Shown here: positions 1 to 11,768 of the stretch, piece after piece | How positions within the stretch are numbered: position 1 is the first letter of the stretch | Layout of the letters: every line of letters begins with the position of its first letter | DNA from: Natronorubrum daqingense | GTDB taxonomy: Archaea; Halobacteriota; Halobacteria; Halobacteriales; Natrialbaceae | Reading direction: 5' to 3' | Assembly (NCBI RefSeq): GCF_001971705.1 | Contig: NZ_CP019327.1 | Coordinates: 2,170,001-2,234,000, forward strand | DNA length: 64,000 bases | Position numbers and translations under genes: made by a program | Notes under the pieces: model-generated | The model's database searches: none | What the model was told of the DNA's origin: nothing | Seen by the model: only the letters and a program-made list of their open reading frames with translations

Positions 1-1
1 C

Positions 2-148
2 TGTGGTCGGGAGTTCACGAGCGAGGCGACCGTCGCCGCGATCGAAGATCGAATCGGCGAGCGCGTCGCTGAACTCTCGCCGACGGCCGACAGGAGCATT
101 ATCGAGTACTGTCCGGAATGTCGAGCGAACTTGCTCCACGAGCGCTAA
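2..148 (+). CDS. C-terminal end of a zinc-ribbon-like protein (5' truncated by window)
   Basis: An open frame enters from the left edge and ends at the TAA at 146-148, giving 48 residues of a C-terminus. It begins Cys-Gly-Arg-Glu-Phe and carries a second pair, CPEC, ten residues before the end. The first Cys is probably half of a CxxC pair cut by the window edge, so a four-Cys zinc-binding module is likely. The segment between is helical and acidic. Function cannot be assigned. Confidence 0.55.
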   Translation, partial: CGREFTSEATVAAIEDRIGERVAELSPTADRSIIEYCPECRANLLHER

Positions 149-3402: not shown

Positions 3403-4326
3403 TTACTCGGCGTGTTCGATCTCCCAGTCGGCGTTCTCCGCTGCCGTCTCGAGCGGGACGAACTCCCAGTCGGCGGCCTCCGCGATCCACTCGTCGCCGG
3501 CCGTGCCGACGAGGACCATTCGCTCCGCGTAGAACATCGATTCGGGTGTGACATCGGCGAGTCGCTGATCTGGCCCGTTCTCCGAGCCGCCGAAGAAGTC
3601 CAGTTCGATGGTGTGATCGCGCTGGAACTTCCGGATCGCCGGGGTGGAGACCTTGCCGACGATGCCGATCCAGTCGGACCAACTGCGGGCGTCGGCAATA
3701 CAAAAGCGCGGGTCCTCGAGTCGGTTGATCGCCTCGTAGGTCATCGCGAGCGTCATATCGTCCGCCTCGGTTTCCTCTCCGTGATTCGTCGTTCGCTGCG
3801 AGGACCCACTCGAGGCGGTTGTCGTCGGCTCGTCCGCGTTCGCACTCGAGGACGCGCTGCTCGAGGACGGGGAGCCACCGCCGGAGCCGCCCTTGGATTC
3901 CGGGACGCCGACCGGCCCGGACGGCCCGCCGGGGACTTTCGGCGTCCTGGGAGCTGCGGACTCGTCGTCGCCCGAATCGTCGACGTCGACAGCGGAATCG
4001 GAGCCGTCGGCGTCGACGGCCGAATCCGAATCGTCGGGATCGCGAACGTCCGCGCTCGCTTCGGCGCTTGCTGGTGAATCGCCACTCGCCACCCCGACTT
4101 CGTCGCTGGCCGGGATCTCGTCACCGTCCGGCGATTTCGGTACCTCGCTCGAGCCCCCATCGCCAGCGTCGGTCGCTGCGGAATCAGAGCGGACCCAGCG
4201 TGGCTCCGGTTCGTCGTCCGGGTCGCCTTCGCCACGCCAGAGCCAGTCGCCGTAGTTGGCGTCGCTTTCTTGATCGTCTGCCGAGTCGTCGACTGTCATT
4301 TCGTCGAGGTCGATGCTGTCGGTCAT
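3403..4326 (-). CDS. Acidic haloarchaeal protein with conserved C-terminal domain (unknown function)
   Basis: Predicted 307 residues in two parts. Residues about 1-195 are low-complexity, rich in Asp, Ser, Glu and Pro and probably disordered. Residues about 200-307 form a compact domain (starts TLAMTYEAINRLEDP, contains WSDWIGIVG and ends in WEIEHAE), which I recall only as a haloarchaeal domain of unknown function. Its ATG overlaps the stop of the AOR-like gene by four bases (ATGA), so the two are translationally coupled and may act together. No cofactor motif is visible. Confidence 0.7.
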   Translation of the reverse strand: MTDSIDLDEMTVDDSADDQESDANYGDWLWRGEGDPDDEPEPRWVRSDSAATDAGDGGSSEVPKSPDGDEIPASDEVGVASGDSPASAEASADVRDPDDSDSAVDADGSDSAVDVDDSGDDESAAPRTPKVPGGPSGPVGVPESKGGSGGGSPSSSSASSSANADEPTTTASSGSSQRTTNHGEETEADDMTLAMTYEAINRLEDPRFCIADARSWSDWIGIVGKVSTPAIRKFQRDHTIELDFFGGSENGPDQRLADVTPESMFYAERMVLVGTAGDEWIAEAADWEFVPLETAAENADWEIEHAE

Positions 4327-6125
4327 TGTCGAGTACCTCCGTCTTGGGGTTCCAAATCTGACGCGCGTGGAATCGGCGTCTCCTCGTCGGGAACGTCCGC
4401 GAGGTCCAGTCTGTGAAGCAGGTCTCGCGTCGGGCGACCCTGTCGGTCCCACTCGCGCTGTGCGTAGTAGTGCTCGAGCAGGGAGTCGAACGACGCGCGG
4501 TCGACGGCCGACTCCGCACTCGAGTCGTCCTCGAAGGGTTCCGTCAACGGCGACGGGAGTTCGTCGTCCGCTCGCGTGAAGCCCTCGCGGATGTTGAACA
4601 GTCGCACGAGCGTCCAGACGCGTTCGCCGACGCGAGCGAGGTCTTCGGGCTCGAGGTCGTAGCCGACGGCCGCGAGCCACTCCGCGCCGTCGTCGACGCG
4701 CAACACGTCCTCGAGGAAGTCGTCCGCGATCAGACTCCAGAGGAGCGCCCGGTGGTTCTGCTCGGCGACGACTGCAGTTGCACGTTCTCGGACGCTTCGT
4801 TGGGAACCGGACACCGGCTCGATTTCGACCGGGCGGGCGCGTCGGTGACAGCCGCCGCGGTCGCTCGTCGCGTACGCGAGCGCCATCGTCTCCGCGCTGC
4901 GCGGGTCGTACGAGGAGAGTTCCATCCCTTTCACGGTCGGGATCAAGTCGTCGCCGCCGAATCGCTCCACCGCACCGTCGACGCCCTCCGCGAGCGCGTC
5001 GCCGAGTGGAGTCGAGCGGTGGGCGATCTCCTCGATCAGTGCTCGAGCGGCGTGTTCGTCGCCGAACGAAAGGTCGCGGTCGATCAACCCCTCCTCGCTG
5101 GCGCGGACCGCCCAGGCAACCGCGTTGCCCGCGGTGATCACGTCGAGCGCGAGGTGATCGCAGATCGCGCCGAGGGTCGCGACGGCGTCGAAATCGTCGA
5201 TTCCGAGCCCCGCGCCGAGGACGATCGGCGTCGCGCCGCGGGGGACGCTCTCGCCTTCCTCGCTGTCGACGCGAAAGCCACCCGGTACGGCGTCGTCCGG
5301 ACGCTCGCGCCCGGTCGATGCCTCGCGCGCCCGTTCGATACCGATCGCGTCAGCTCCCTCGAAGCTCCCCTCCTGCCAGCCTCGAGTCGGGAGTACGCCA
5401 ACCTCGTTGGCGAAATCGACCGTCTCGAGCGTGTCGCTCGCCGCGAGCCACTGGCCGGCGTCGCTCTCGGCGAACGCGTCGTCGTATTGGTCTCGCAGCG
5501 CGTCTAAGCCGTCGGGCGCGTCGTCGTGGGCGACGACGGCCTTCAGGTTCTTCGAGCCCATGACGGTGCCCGCGCCGCCGCGGCCCGCGTGGTGGTCGCC
5601 CCCGTCGGAGGCGATCGTCGCGTACTGAACACCCTGCTCTCCCGCGGGTCCGATGGATGCGACCGAACCGTCCGGAAACCGCGCGTCCGTTTCGCCGGCG
5701 TCGAGTCCCCACACGTCCGCTGCGGGCTCGAGTGTCGCGTCGCCGTCGGCGACCGACAACACGACTGGTTCGTCGGCCTCGCCGGTGACGAGAATTCCGA
5801 GGTGGTTCTCGAGCGACCCGGCGAGGCGACCCGGGAACGTGCCGCCGCCGTAGGAGTCCAGAAAGGCCCCCGTCAGTGGCGATTTCGTAATCGCCGCGTA
5901 CCGCTGTTCGCCCGGCGTAAATCCGGTCAGCGGGCCGAGCATGAACAACAAGACGTTCTCCGGACCGGCTGGATCGGTCCCCGCCTCGAGTTCCTCGTAG
6001 AGGTATCGCGCACCGATTCCTTTGCCCCCGACGTACTCTTGGAGCCATCGCTCGGGAATCGCGTCGCTGCTCACGCGTGGTGCCGAGAGATCGACTCGCA
6101 GGATTCTATCTGGCCGGGGCATCAC
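4323..6125 (-). CDS. Aldehyde:ferredoxin oxidoreductase family protein lacking Fe-S cysteines
   Basis: Predicted 600 residues, the usual AOR length. Tungsto/molybdopterin-binding elements are present: GPAGEQGV near 159, GRGGAGTVMGSKNLKAV at 181-197 and SYDPRSAETMALAYATSDRG at 405-424. In canonical AORs a CxxCxxxC motif near residue 285 and a later Cys bind the [4Fe-4S] cluster. Here that stretch reads RERPDDAVPGGFRVD, and the whole protein has only two Cys (322 and 426). The pterin may bind, but electrons cannot leave through the usual cluster. It is transcribed divergently from a formate-dehydrogenase-like operon and coupled to the acidic gene at 3403-4326. Substrate unknown. Confidence 0.85.
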   Translation of the reverse strand: MMPRPDRILRVDLSAPRVSSDAIPERWLQEYVGGKGIGARYLYEELEAGTDPAGPENVLLFMLGPLTGFTPGEQRYAAITKSPLTGAFLDSYGGGTFPGRLAGSLENHLGILVTGEADEPVVLSVADGDATLEPAADVWGLDAGETDARFPDGSVASIGPAGEQGVQYATIASDGGDHHAGRGGAGTVMGSKNLKAVVAHDDAPDGLDALRDQYDDAFAESDAGQWLAASDTLETVDFANEVGVLPTRGWQEGSFEGADAIGIERAREASTGRERPDDAVPGGFRVDSEEGESVPRGATPIVLGAGLGIDDFDAVATLGAICDHLALDVITAGNAVAWAVRASEEGLIDRDLSFGDEHAARALIEEIAHRSTPLGDALAEGVDGAVERFGGDDLIPTVKGMELSSYDPRSAETMALAYATSDRGGCHRRARPVEIEPVSGSQRSVRERATAVVAEQNHRALLWSLIADDFLEDVLRVDDGAEWLAAVGYDLEPEDLARVGERVWTLVRLFNIREGFTRADDELPSPLTEPFEDDSSAESAVDRASFDSLLEHYYAQREWDRQGRPTRDLLHRLDLADVPDEETPIPRASDLEPQDGGTRQ

Positions 6126-6308: not shown

Positions 6309-9305
6309 ATGTCACGGGCATCACTAGACCTCGATCGGCGAGGCTTCCTTAAAGCCGGCGTCGGTGGAAGCCTTGCAGCGGCGGTCGGGGGACGAACCCT
6401 GTTGCAGCGAGACAGTGAAGACGGTGAACCGCTCGACCCAGACGCAGCGGACGAACTGGTGAAGACGGTCTGTACGCACTGTTCTGTTGGCTGTGGTGTG
6501 CACATGGCCGTCGAAGACGACGCCGTCATCGGACAGGAAACCTGGGACGACAACCCGGTCAATCAGGGCGGAGTCTGTTCGAAGGGGGCATCGTTGACCC
6601 AGTCCGTCAACTCCGAACAGCGCCTGAAGGAGCCGCTGAAACTCGAGGACGGCGAGTGGGTGCAGATGGATTGGGACGAGATTCTGCCGGAGATTACCGA
6701 ACGCCTCAACGACATTCGAGAGGACGTCGGCCCCCACGGCACGATGTGGGTCGGCTCCGCGAAACACTCGAACGAGGCGGCGTACCTCATCCGAAAGCTC
6801 TCGGCGCTCTACGGCACGAACAACATCGACCACCAGGCGCGAATCTGTCACTCGACGACCGTCGAGGGCATCGCGAACACCTGGGGCGTCGGCGCGATGA
6901 CGAACAACTCGAACGATATGGCCAACGTCGACGTCAACCTGATCATCGGCCACAACCCCCTCGAGAGCCACCCCGTCGCCTGGCAGTACTTCCAGGACGC
7001 ACAGGAAAACGGCGGGAAACACATCGTCGCCGAGCCACGGTACACGAAGACGGCGGCAGCCTCGGACGACTACTTCCACTTCCGGTCGGGGACCGACGTC
7101 GCGTTCATCTACGGGCTCATCTACCACATCGTCAACAATCTCGAGGCTCACGACGAGGAGTTCATCGAGAGCCGCGTCATGGTCGAGACGTGGGAGGAGT
7201 TCCGGGACGACTACCTTCCAGAGTACGACCTCGAGACGGTCTCCGACATCTGTGGAACGCCAGTCTCGGACCTCGAGGAACTCGCGGAGGAACTCGCCGA
7301 CGCCGACGTGAGTTGCGTCGAGTGGGCGATGGGTGGCACCCAGCACAACAACGCGACGGGCAACGTCCGAGCGTACGCGATGTTGAACCTCGCGCTGGGC
7401 CACTCCGCACAATCCGCGGGTGGCACGCCGATTTTCCGCGGCCACGACAACGTACAGGGAGCGACCGACCTCGGCGTCGACGCCGGGAACACGCCCGGCT
7501 ACTACGGACTCGACCAGGGAGCCTGGGAACACTGGGCCAACGTCTGGGACGAGACGGAGAGCACCTCGGGCGACCTGACCTACGACGAACTGGCAGATCG
7601 ATACCACGATACGGAGCTGATGGAGAAAAACGGCTTCACCGTCGCCCGCTGGTACGAAGGCGTCCTGGACGACGAGTGGGAGATCTACCAGCCCGATCCG
7701 CTGCAAGCGGCCGTCTTCTGGGGCCACGGACTCGCCTCGCTGACGGAGTACAAGAAGGTCAGAGAGGCGGTCAACCAACTCGACTTCATCGTCAACGTCG
7801 ACGTCTTCCCGAACCAGGTCGCCGAACTCGCGGACAGCGACACGGACGTCTACATGCTGCCAGCCGCGACGAACATCGAAGAAGCCGGCAGCGTCGTGAA
7901 CACGGGACGACAGCTCCAGTGGCGATCCCAGGCGATCGAGCCACGCCACAACTCCAAGACCGACTGGGAGTTGCTCTGTGAGTTTGCTGACCACCTCGGC
8001 TTCGGCGAGCACTTCGACTACGACGAGGTCGAAGACGTCACCCGGGAGATCAACCTCGGCGTTCGGTCGGTCGGCTACGTCGGCCAGACGCCCGAGCGTC
8101 TCAAGGCTCACCAACAGAATGCAGACCTCTTCAGTCCGGAAGACCTGCGGGCCGATTTCGACGAACTCGACGTCGACGAGGACGACGTCGACGGCGTCCA
8201 AGACGGCGACGTCTACGGACTGCCGTGGCCGTGTTGGCACGACGAACACCCCGGAACACCGATTCTCTACGACTCTTCGTTGCACCCCTCCGACGGTGGC
8301 ATGGACTTCCGATCCAACTGGTGGGACGACGCGGTCGACGAAGACGACCCGGAGATCGAACCGGAAGACCACCTCCGAGATCCGTTCACGCCGGAGTGGA
8401 CCGATCAGGAACTCGAGGGGGTGCCACAGTACCCGCTTTTCACCACGGTACTGCCGGACCCGGAGAACCCGGCGGCAGCGACGATTCCGATCGAGGGCGC
8501 GTTCGACGAGGACACGTCCGTCGCGGACGTCGCTCAACAACTCGACGAGGAAGGCTACGACGTCGACCTCGAGCGCTACGAGGAGTTCGACAACCCACAG
8601 CCCGACGCGCCGTGGGGTCGCGGTCGCGCCCGGATGAAGGCCTGGAACCTCACCGACGAGATTCCAGTCCACCGCGAACCCGCGGTCACGCCGCGACCGG
8701 ATCTCGTCGACGAGTACCCGTGTAACGACCGAACCGAGGACCACTGGCGCGTCGAACTCGACAACGCGCAGGTCCAACAGGACAATATCGACGCCGTCGA
8801 CGACCACGACCTCGTCCTCACGTCCGGACGGCAGGTCGAGCACAAGGGTGCCGGGGCAGTCACCCGGAGCACGCAGGGAACCGCCTCGCGCGCGCCGATG
8901 ATGTACCTCGAGATCCACCCGGAGGTCGCCGAAGAGCAACTCGACGGCGTCGAGGAGGGCGAGTGGATCGTCGTCGCGACGCCACACGCCGAGATGGTCG
9001 TGCAGGCGCGGCCAACCGAACGAGTCGCTCCGGATCACGCCTTCGCGCCGTACCACTGGAGTGGGATCCTCGAGGGCGAGAAGATGACGGATCGGTTCGG
9101 CGGCGAGATGGAGGGACTCGAGCCGCTGGTGATCGGCGAGTCGATCAACGCCGGGACGGCCCCAGCGTACGATCGCGAGACCCAGATGCAAGAGTCGAAG
9201 GTGACGCTGTGTAGCGTCCGACTGGCCGAGGACGACGAGGTTCCGGATCTCTCACAGCGCCAACTCGACTGGCAGGAACAGCGAATCAACCGACACAAGC
9301 GATAG
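6309..9305 (+). CDS. Formate-dehydrogenase-like molybdopterin oxidoreductase, catalytic subunit
   Basis: Predicted 998 residues, close to FdnG-type formate dehydrogenases. A Tat signal (LDRRGFLKAG) opens the protein, so the mature enzyme should face outside. A proximal [4Fe-4S] is bound by C55, C58, C62 and C90, with K92 in the electron path. The molybdenum-site motif reads ARICHSTTVEGIANTWGVGA with Cys180-His181, the position of Sec-His in FdnG, so this is a Cys variant. A C-terminal molydopterin dinucleotide-binding domain (about 820-970) includes LTSGRQVEHKGAG. It heads an operon with ferredoxin, NrfD and TorD genes. Formate oxidation is the best guess; related oxidoreductases share this layout and the substrate is not proven. 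Confidence 0.85.
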   Translation: MSRASLDLDRRGFLKAGVGGSLAAAVGGRTLLQRDSEDGEPLDPDAADELVKTVCTHCSVGCGVHMAVEDDAVIGQETWDDNPVNQGGVCSKGASLTQSVNSEQRLKEPLKLEDGEWVQMDWDEILPEITERLNDIREDVGPHGTMWVGSAKHSNEAAYLIRKLSALYGTNNIDHQARICHSTTVEGIANTWGVGAMTNNSNDMANVDVNLIIGHNPLESHPVAWQYFQDAQENGGKHIVAEPRYTKTAAASDDYFHFRSGTDVAFIYGLIYHIVNNLEAHDEEFIESRVMVETWEEFRDDYLPEYDLETVSDICGTPVSDLEELAEELADADVSCVEWAMGGTQHNNATGNVRAYAMLNLALGHSAQSAGGTPIFRGHDNVQGATDLGVDAGNTPGYYGLDQGAWEHWANVWDETESTSGDLTYDELADRYHDTELMEKNGFTVARWYEGVLDDEWEIYQPDPLQAAVFWGHGLASLTEYKKVREAVNQLDFIVNVDVFPNQVAELADSDTDVYMLPAATNIEEAGSVVNTGRQLQWRSQAIEPRHNSKTDWELLCEFADHLGFGEHFDYDEVEDVTREINLGVRSVGYVGQTPERLKAHQQNADLFSPEDLRADFDELDVDEDDVDGVQDGDVYGLPWPCWHDEHPGTPILYDSSLHPSDGGMDFRSNWWDDAVDEDDPEIEPEDHLRDPFTPEWTDQELEGVPQYPLFTTVLPDPENPAAATIPIEGAFDEDTSVADVAQQLDEEGYDVDLERYEEFDNPQPDAPWGRGRARMKAWNLTDEIPVHREPAVTPRPDLVDEYPCNDRTEDHWRVELDNAQVQQDNIDAVDDHDLVLTSGRQVEHKGAGAVTRSTQGTASRAPMMYLEIHPEVAEEQLDGVEEGEWIVVATPHAEMVVQARPTERVAPDHAFAPYHWSGILEGEKMTDRFGGEMEGLEPLVIGESINAGTAPAYDRETQMQESKVTLCSVRLAEDDEVPDLSQRQLDWQEQRINRHKR

Positions 9306-9315
9306 GTGAACGAAA

Positions 9316-9918
9316 ATGAGCACACAAGATTCCAACGGCGGACCGGCACGAGTCATTCCCAACTGGGAGTCCTGTATCGACTGTGGTGCGTGTGAGGTCG
9401 CGTGTCAGCGGACGTGGGACCTCCCGCCCGAGTCCGATCGAATTCAGGTCGTCGCGATCGAACACGGGACGGACAACGAGACGAACAAGCCGATGCAGTG
9501 TTACAACTGCGCGGAAGCGCCGTGTATCGACGTCTGTCCGACGGAGGCGCTTCACTACACGGACAACGGCAGCGTCCGCGTCAGCGGCGACAAGTGTATC
9601 GGCTGTCACTACTGTGGCGTCGGCTGTCCGTTCGGCGCACCGCAGTTCCCCGACGGCGAGGTTCCAGAAGCACAGGAATCCGAGCCGCTGGGGGCCCGCG
9701 GAAACGGTCTGATGGACAAGTGTACGACCTGCGAACCGCGCCAGGAGAACGACCTCGAGCCGGCGTGTTCCTCCGAGTGTCCGACGGACGCCTTGCTGTT
9801 TGGCACGCCGGAAGAGCTCTCCGAAAAGCTCGACGAAGACAACGTTTCAACGCCGTTCAACGAGGAGTCCGCACAGATCATCTTCGGCGATGACGCGGAC
9901 GAGGTTATGGGGGACTAG
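9316..9918 (+). CDS. Four-cluster ferredoxin-like electron-transfer subunit
   Basis: Predicted 200 residues with sixteen Cys in four groups: CIDCGACEVAC, CYNCAEAPCIDVC, CIGCHYCGVGC, and CTTC...CSSEC. This is the DmsB/FdnH/PsrB-type subunit that carries electrons between the molybdopterin subunit and the membrane subunit through four [4Fe-4S] clusters. It starts 10 bp after the catalytic gene, with an aggtga ribosome-binding-like sequence at the junction. There is no C-terminal membrane helix of the FdnH kind, so it is held by the NrfD partner. It is probably carried across the membrane with the Tat-tagged subunit. Confidence 0.9.
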   Translation: MSTQDSNGGPARVIPNWESCIDCGACEVACQRTWDLPPESDRIQVVAIEHGTDNETNKPMQCYNCAEAPCIDVCPTEALHYTDNGSVRVSGDKCIGCHYCGVGCPFGAPQFPDGEVPEAQESEPLGARGNGLMDKCTTCEPRQENDLEPACSSECPTDALLFGTPEELSEKLDEDNVSTPFNEESAQIIFGDDADEVMGD

Positions 9919-9925
9919 ATCACCG

Positions 9926-11047
9926 ATGCCAACTGAAGTCACGTACGGCCTACCGTACGACCAATGGAACTGGCGTATCGGCGTCTACATCGCCATGATC
10001 GGACTCGCAGGCGGGGCCTACCTCACCGGGTACGTCGCCGACTTGCTCGCCGAAAAACGCGACTCGAGGCAGTACGGACAGGTCGCTACGTTCGGCTACC
10101 TCGTCGGATTAGGTGGGCTGGCCATCGGGCCGCCGATCTTGCTCTCACACCTCGCGGCACCGTTCCGTGCCATGATGATTCCGCTGACGATGACGAATCT
10201 GGGGTCGTGGATGTCCATCGGCGCGTACATGCTGATGGGCTTCGGACTGGGAACGACGTTGATGTTCCTCTGGCTTGCGTTCGGCACGAACCGTCCACAC
10301 GTCCAAACGCTGGACTCGAGTAACGAGGTTGCAGCCGACGGCGGCGAAGATGTCGCAGCCGACGGTGGCCCGGCCAAAGCCGCGACCAGCGACGAAACGG
10401 CTGGTGGCTTCCGCGGCGCTGCGAACAAGGTCGGCCTCATGAACCTCCTCGACAGTATCGCGGACTACACCCGTCCGTCCCGGCGAAACCGACTCGTCGT
10501 CGGTGCACTCTTCGGGATCTTCGCGGCCGGCGTGTTGGTCTACTCCGCGATGGCCTACGGCTCCGGTTCGACCGAACGCGTCGCGCTCTGGGACCCGACG
10601 TTCTTGCTCCCGGTGCAGATCCTCACCGGTCTCGGTGCCGGACTCACCATCGCAGTCGGCCTCGCCGCACTCGCCGAGCGAGACGTCGGGCGACCCATCC
10701 AGAACTGTTCGCTCGGTGCTGCCGGCTTGCTCGCAGGCGGACTCGTCGCAGTGCTCGCGACGCTGTTCCTCTTGCCCGAGCAAATTCCGGAAGCCCAACC
10801 AGCAGTCGACAACCTGACGTCGGCCTACGCACTCGAGTTCGTCGGCATCGCACTCGTCGGCGGCCTGCTCTTGCCGATCGTGCTCTCGATCGCTGGGACA
10901 CTCGGCGTGCGTCGTGACGCGCTCTCTGACTCCGGTGCCGTCGGAGCCTACGTCGCCGCGGCCGCGCTGGTCGTCGCCGGCAAACTCGCGCTCGCGCTCA
11001 GCTACCTCATGGCCGCCGAGTTCACGCCGATGCCGCTCCCAGTATAG
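9926..11047 (+). CDS. NrfD/PsrC-family membrane subunit
   Basis: Predicted 373 residues with about eight to nine hydrophobic segments, beginning TEVTYGLPYDQWNWRIGVY, the conserved N-terminus of NrfD/polysulfide-reductase membrane subunits that exchange electrons with menaquinone. A hydrophilic acidic loop (about residues 120-160) interrupts the helices. It starts 7 bp after the ferredoxin gene, completing a three-subunit Tat-exported complex. Use of NrfD rather than a cytochrome b anchor separates it from classic FdnI-type formate dehydrogenases. The frame is open upstream inside the ferredoxin gene; ATG 9926 gives the family N-terminus. Confidence 0.88.
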   Translation: MPTEVTYGLPYDQWNWRIGVYIAMIGLAGGAYLTGYVADLLAEKRDSRQYGQVATFGYLVGLGGLAIGPPILLSHLAAPFRAMMIPLTMTNLGSWMSIGAYMLMGFGLGTTLMFLWLAFGTNRPHVQTLDSSNEVAADGGEDVAADGGPAKAATSDETAGGFRGAANKVGLMNLLDSIADYTRPSRRNRLVVGALFGIFAAGVLVYSAMAYGSGSTERVALWDPTFLLPVQILTGLGAGLTIAVGLAALAERDVGRPIQNCSLGAAGLLAGGLVAVLATLFLLPEQIPEAQPAVDNLTSAYALEFVGIALVGGLLLPIVLSIAGTLGVRRDALSDSGAVGAYVAAAALVVAGKLALALSYLMAAEFTPMPLPV

Positions 11048-11099: not shown

Positions 11100-11768
11100 A
11101 TGACACAGCCGAGCAACACGACGGGCGAACTCGCGGAACTCTACGCCTTCGTCTCGAGCGTACTCGCAGATCCGCCCGACGAGATCGCCGTCGAACGACT
11201 CTCGACCGAACAGTTTCCCGCACAGGCCTCCCCGCAGTCACTCGAGAACGGGTTCCGACTGCTCCGCCAGTGGCAAGCCGACGTAGACGAGCCAAGCGAG
11301 ACAGCCGACGAACTCAAACGAACACATACGAAGCTCTTCGTCGGTCCGCGACCCAGACTCCAGATTTACGAGTCCTGGTACGCAGACGACTACCTCGGCC
11401 AGCCCCTCGCGGCCGTCAAGAGCTCCTACCGAGATCTGAACATCCACCCGACGGAGGACCTCAAGGAAGAAGCAGACCACGCCGCCGTCGAGTTAGCAGC
11501 CCTCCAGACGCTCGCTCGAGACGGCGACGACGAGCACCGACGCGCGTTCCTCATGGCCCACGGCTGGTGGCTGACGGACCTCGCGACGGATCTCCAGGAG
11601 ATGGTCGACGACACGTTCTACGAGGCCATCGGCTGGCTCGTCGAGGGCATCGTCGATCTGGACTGTTACCTGCTCAGCCTCGATCCGAACGACCTCGAGC
11701 GCGGGTACGACGACAGTCCCTACACGCCGGTCGAGCCGTCGTTCAAAGCGCCGTTCGAAGAGCAGTAA
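11100..11768 (+). CDS. TorD/DmsD-family molybdoenzyme chaperone
   Basis: Predicted 222 residues, all-helical and acidic. It has the family pattern of an N-terminal LAELYAFVSSVLADPP helix, a YESWYADDYLGQ stretch in the middle and a conserved D/H-rich C-terminal half (HGWWLTDLATDLQE). TorD proteins bind the Tat signal and apoenzyme of molybdopterin oxidoreductases until cofactor is inserted. The position 52 bp after the NrfD gene makes the catalytic subunit at 6309-9305 the obvious client. Confidence 0.85.
   Translation: MTQPSNTTGELAELYAFVSSVLADPPDEIAVERLSTEQFPAQASPQSLENGFRLLRQWQADVDEPSETADELKRTHTKLFVGPRPRLQIYESWYADDYLGQPLAAVKSSYRDLNIHPTEDLKEEADHAAVELAALQTLARDGDDEHRRAFLMAHGWWLTDLATDLQEMVDDTFYEAIGWLVEGIVDLDCYLLSLDPNDLERGYDDSPYTPVEPSFKAPFEEQ

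Follow-up and report, generated by a model that had tools for sequence, protein, structure and literature searches.

The window analysed here, 64,000 nucleotides of Natronorubrum daqingense DNA (contig NZ_CP019327.1), encodes an AOR-family protein with no cysteine at the positions where AORs bind their [4Fe-4S] cluster, and its gene diverges from genes for a formate dehydrogenase (FDH)-like complex. What does such a protein do? A redox metalloenzyme branch without its cluster and its catalytic acid, yet under selection, is unusual, and a 2026 survey of the AOR family found very little variation at these residues (PMC13328260). No cluster-less clade was found in the part of that survey's text reached by a term search (PMC13328260), and no description of one was found in the open-access PMC papers searched. 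The features that the argument needs are as follows.

1..145, plus strand: 3' end of the gene for an HdrA/FlpD-like Fe-S protein (whole gene -1990 to 145; L159)
3403..4326, minus strand: DUF7124 protein, 307 aa, with a long acidic N-terminal part (Pfam PF23439, on an orthologue linked to the Cys-less AOR)
4323..6122, minus strand: Cys-less protein of the AOR family, 599 aa, start ATG 6122; stop TGA 4323-4325
4722..4724, minus strand: D468 where 1aor has C494, the fourth ligand of the cluster (78/79 clade rows carry Asp)
4845..4850, minus strand: C426-H427 (1aor C447-H448); active-site His in every complete clade member
5232..5240, minus strand: R296-G297-A298, replacing the family-invariant E311-Y312-E313 (R and G in 78/79 clade rows)
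5274..5300, minus strand: former cluster loop, residues 276-284, PDDAVPGGF replacing PCYACPIGC (alignment)
6309..9305, plus strand: FDH-like Mo/W-bisPGD catalytic subunit, 998 aa, divergent from the Cys-less AOR (TIGR01591, 437 bits, cut-off 666)
9316..9918, plus strand: FdhB/NrfC-like iron-sulfur electron-transfer subunit
9926..11047, plus strand: NrfD-like membrane subunit, a weak match (TIGR03148, E 1.4e-4; no Pfam match)
11100..11768, plus strand: TorD/NarJ-family redox-enzyme maturation chaperone

Loss of the cluster ligands and catalytic glutamate in one clade

The gene lies on the minus strand, a correction to the first-pass annotation of this DNA. Orthologue comparison placed the start at ATG 6122; an alternative GTG at 6125 opens a 600-aa reading frame, whose numbering we use for the residues of the protein. 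Pfam AFOR_N (203.7 bits) and AFOR_C (313.4 bits) matches span the full length, and Pfam and NCBIfam scans returned no families besides AOR ones, the FdhD domain (PF02634) not being among the Pfam matches. An AlphaFold2 model from 29 clade sequences (pLDDT 83.7, pTM 0.89) matched 1b25, 9mqx and 1aor in Foldseek with TM 0.87-0.89, and the closest solved structures are AORs and FORs. By sequence and fold, the protein belongs to the AOR (WOR) family. No signal sequence was seen at its N-terminus, which reads MPRPDRILRVDLS.

Alignment with P. furiosus AOR (1aor) left the cluster loop ungapped, with NKPCYACPIGC opposite RERPDDAVPGGF; C288, C291 and C295 are replaced by D277, V280 and F284, and C494 by D468. 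MAFFT also showed no cysteine at the loop, but placed the loop gaps differently. The first-pass annotation had described an AOR-family protein without cluster ligands, with Cys322 and Cys426 as the only cysteines in 600 residues, and we confirmed both the loss and the count. It had also regarded the pterin motifs as intact, which does not hold for the second one, where DxxGLC (489-494) is changed to WSLIAD, and it had not noticed that the catalytic Glu313 is lost as well.

Named haloarchaeal genomes and a set of 61 related genomes supplied the orthologues, which gave an alignment of 79 clade rows and 40 outgroup rows. Cysteine was absent from the four ligand positions in every clade row (0/79) and CCCC was present in 40/40 outgroup rows; loss of the ligands together with Glu313 was seen in 79/79 clade rows versus 0/40 outgroup rows. 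The outgroup has E, Y/F and E at positions 311-313, and the clade carries Ala, Gly or Ser at the Glu313 position. Conservation of at least 90% in the outgroup combined with change in most of the clade was seen at C288, C291, C295, C494, E311, Y312, E313 and G460, while R76, G95, G188, T243, D343, Y427, R430 and H448 are retained. New near-invariant residues have appeared in the clade, namely Asp 494, Arg-Gly 311-312, Glu 285, Arg 449 and Trp 489. In a tree of 75 rows, a single branch (SH-aLRT 100) set apart the Cys-less proteins, which are about 50-95% identical, and their sister was a haloarchaeal clade that retains the cysteines. The four cluster ligands and E311-Y312-E313 were lost in one event, and the cysteine loss marks a conserved clade, as the first-pass annotation had asked. 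The two trivial explanations that it had named were both ruled out: the two cysteines that are present align with the inherited AOR positions 1aor C337 and C447 and are not displaced ligands, and a sequencing error or frameshift does not account for a loss that 79 sequences share and that has a single origin. Between close pairs dN/dS was 0.12-0.31, showing a maintained protein under purifying selection.

The cofactor-site residues that vary little in the family survey are Thr243, Glu313, Tyr427 and His448 (PMC13328260); the Cys-less AOR keeps three of the four and has lost Glu313, and reads D/V/F/D at the CxxCxxxC and late Cys positions that bind [4Fe-4S]. It is an AOR by fold that lacks the defining enzyme features we tested. 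Because the cluster ligands and the catalytic Glu are lost, the protein is not expected to oxidise simple aldehydes with electron exit through the cluster, and the earlier judgement that it cannot work as a normal ferredoxin-reducing AOR is supported by these residues. Use of another electron acceptor, also proposed earlier, is disfavoured by the loss of Tyr312 along with Glu313.

Association with formate dehydrogenases, YqeC and MobA

A 183-bp gap separates the Cys-less AOR gene from the divergent FDH-like gene, whose product has a DHQARICHS motif with the Cys-His pair of FDHs and an N-terminus that reads as a Tat-type signal (RRGFLK). On the other side, the AOR stop and the DUF7124 ATG share 4 nt (ATGA), and the two genes are likely co-translated. 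DUF7124 as a specific partner was nevertheless weakened by the occurrence of its domain in 194/194 haloarchaeal genomes, with two copies in the source genome; the AOR-linked copy is an extra paralogue. An AlphaFold2 model of the DUF7124 protein (pLDDT 89, a confident alpha/beta fold) did not match any PDB entry significantly (best E 0.023). To the left of the window, beyond the HdrA/FlpD-like gene, lies a YqeC gene (-3500 to -2775). The HdrA/FlpD-like Fe-S protein recurs beside Cys-less AOR and FDH genes and is a possible electron-transfer partner of FDH.

We surveyed the neighbours of 56 named Cys-less AOR loci, mostly with 10 kb flanks, in composition-filtered reading frames. FDH-like catalytic subunits were present at 29 loci, YqeC at 22 (calls over the NCBIfam cut-off), MobA at 17 (called as best NCBIfam match, under its cut-off) and DUF7124 at 17, followed by TorD-like (15), HdrA/FlpD-like Fe-S (14), DUF7405 (11) and NuoF-like (10) proteins. 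At least one of FDH, YqeC and MobA stood beside the AOR at 38/56 loci, and the recurrent neighbours were absent at 11/56, where some contigs are short. Three FDH subclasses were found near the AOR, with DHQARICHS, DNCARLCHS and DNCTRMCHAS motifs; all have the Cys-His pair, and their partner subunits differ. Of the two neighbours that the first-pass annotation had asked about, the acidic one (DUF7124) is common beside the AOR gene but not invariably so, and its domain is universal in haloarchaea; the FDH association extends beyond the divergent operon.

The association extends across 194 Halobacteria genomes, although these are related, so that the Fisher p values overstate independence and are descriptive. 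The Cys-less AOR occurs in 108/194 genomes, and YqeC is present in all 108. An FDH-like subunit also accompanies it in 108/108, 107 of them at E <= 1e-90 and the last being G112, with a DHQARICHS FDH about 6 kb from the AOR. YqeC lay within 10 kb in 65/108 genomes, compared with 0/26 for ordinary AORs (the clade-83-like group), and among the matches listed FDH lay within 12 kb in at least 40/103, compared with 0/26. The FDH search scored the best few candidates per genome, and FDH counts are therefore lower bounds, above all for the Tat-type FDH. With this reservation, the Tat-type DHQARICHS FDH was found, among the matches listed, in genomes with the Cys-less AOR only (16/16, plus G095 and G163).

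We separated genomes with 'tandem-type' FDH-like enzymes post hoc, after inspection of active-site motifs. Without these enzymes (DNCNRLCH/DNRARLCH) and one non-FDH match, YqeC was present in 132/132 FDH genomes (at least 132) and the Cys-less AOR in 108 of them; the other 24 all have YqeC. The Cys-less AOR is therefore not needed for every FDH, and YqeC is the more general FDH companion, with the AOR in a subset. Within the source genus, one genome lacks the AOR, YqeC and FDH, and two have FDH and YqeC without the AOR. The tandem pair (DNCNRLCH, about 760-900 aa, and DNRARLCH, about 660 aa; L129, L133-L143, L146, L150-L154) is a different FDH-like system, in genomes mostly without YqeC and all without the Cys-less AOR.

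A candidate role in FDH cofactor maturation

In bacteria, the FDHs tested depend on FdhD, which adds sulfur to the bis-MGD cofactor and shields it (PMC6239281, PMC13197769). We found FdhD in 0/194 haloarchaeal genomes, with the control of the same search positive in 8/14 reference genomes. Halobacteria often have FDH without fdhD, and the proteins responsible have been called an unsolved problem (PMC10609526); the FDH, MobA and YqeC company of the Cys-less AOR in FdhD-less genomes offers named candidates for this question of cofactor insertion and sulfuration. The biochemical role of YqeC is uncertain (PMC11448449), and the protein would gain a new context. In the FdhD-less haloarchaea, the distribution of YqeC, otherwise a marker of selenium-dependent molybdenum hydroxylases, follows that of FDH-like enzymes almost without exception when the tandem-type enzymes are set aside.

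The genomic association suggests a candidate role for the Cys-less AOR as an FDH maturation factor. In the explanation that we favour, at a probability of about 0.4, it has been neofunctionalised within the AOR family, as a non-redox protein that helps to make or deliver the metal-pterin cofactor of haloarchaeal FDHs. The cofactor that AORs natively carry is a nucleotide-free metal-bis-pyranopterin, which is also what MobA guanylylates, and it is for this reason that a cofactor-holding role in maturation is favoured. MobA guanylylates the metal-bis-pyranopterin, adding the nucleotides (PMC13197769). The pocket of the Cys-less AOR is partly conserved and binding of a W/Mo-bis-pyranopterin is putative; the protein would still bind the W or Mo form without nucleotides, as AORs do, and would neither pass electrons on nor oxidise aldehydes. 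It could act as a holder or chaperone that passes the cofactor on towards FDH, for example via MobA, or may alternatively protect the cofactor during sulfuration. Against such a role, the pocket by the second pterin is altered (D489 to W, C494 to D). The wider proposal, that the Mo/W-bisPGD cofactor of FDH is matured without FdhD by YqeC and, in most lineages, a pterin-holding cluster-less AOR, is more doubtful; if true, it would mean that an enzyme has been converted into a chaperone for the cofactor of another enzyme family. An obligate substitution for FdhD is unlikely because the Cys-less AOR is not universal in FDH-bearing genomes; the 24 genomes with FDH and YqeC and without it weaken the case for the AOR alone.

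Other explanations have less to recommend them. A cofactor-free pseudoenzyme, regulating or scaffolding FDH or maturation proteins through protein contact, is unlikely. In its favour, the second pterin motif has changed as well as Glu313 and the cluster ligands, and the conserved Arg 311 and Asp 494 could pair ionically in the vacated space. Against it, a contact-only role would not obviously need the cofactor-side residues H448, T243, Y427, R430 and D343, which are conserved. Most pocket differences from 1aor (Y93, H182, H183, R450 and W489) also occur in Cys-bearing relatives and, being shared, are alone no argument against pterin binding; the change of C494 to Asp is specific to the Cys-less clade.

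The same retained residues H448, Y427 and T243 could serve new chemistry in formate or one-carbon metabolism, in a W/Mo-pterin enzyme that is non-redox or that works as a redox enzyme at the metal with an external acceptor. Metal-pterin enzymes can be non-redox, acetylene hydratase being the precedent, and some loci carry a formaldehyde-dehydrogenase-like gene (at L098, TIGR02819 337 bits, under cut-off). Glu313 and Tyr312 are gone, however, and the neighbours are chiefly cofactor-assembly genes and several FDH types, not one substrate pathway; we rate this explanation as quite unlikely, after the pseudoenzyme.

The first-pass annotation had further proposed that the protein partners the divergently encoded FDH-like complex. 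The link to FDH is real, but a dedicated structural subunit is improbable, despite the adjacency across the 183-bp gap and the restriction of the listed Tat-type FDH matches to genomes with the Cys-less AOR. The AOR also occurs with two further FDH subclasses, whose partner subunits differ, at variable distance, so that no one FDH type shares an operon with it throughout; FDH within 12 kb is confined to the at least 40/103 genomes given above; and the Tat-type FDH is presumably exported, whereas the AOR has no signal sequence. Since it is found with three or more FDH subclasses as well as MobA and YqeC, a shared maturation role fits better. Finally, a gene decaying on its way to loss, for which a few frameshifted copies (L099, L102, G140) might speak, is ruled out for practical purposes by the dN/dS values, the presence in 108/194 genomes and the invariant residues, peculiar to the clade, that now occupy the lost sites.

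Comparison with known systems

The tungsten AORs (AOR/WorL: P. furiosus AOR, 1aor; FOR, 1b25; Haloferax volcanii WOR83, 9q1t) have AFOR_N and AFOR_C, the fold and H448, T243, Y427 and D343 in common with the Cys-less AOR, which, unlike them, lacks the [4Fe-4S] ligands, Glu313 and Tyr312 and has an altered second pterin motif. Their context is aldehyde, compared with FDH maturation here. The sister haloarchaeal AORs (L035-L038, L096, L097), from the same host group and 40-47% identical to the Cys-less AOR (SH-aLRT 100), differ by keeping CCCC and Tyr-Glu, and their neighbours are, by names read from sequence, aldehyde dehydrogenases, an aminotransferase and an aldo/keto reductase. The likeness to FdhD/FdsC, the FDH cofactor sulfurtransferase/chaperone, is confined to the proposed role, the handling of metal-pterin for FDH; the fold is different and no sequence similarity was found with Pfam and NCBIfam. 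YqeC (TIGR03172), the constant genomic partner, is an unrelated protein.

Three further AORs are encoded in the source genome, and each retains the four cysteines. Two divergent AOR paralogues of this genome, L003 (C1:2533073) and L004 (C1:1197863), are of a kind common in haloarchaea; they retain CxxCAxxC and the His of GCH, and have Asp in place of Cys447.
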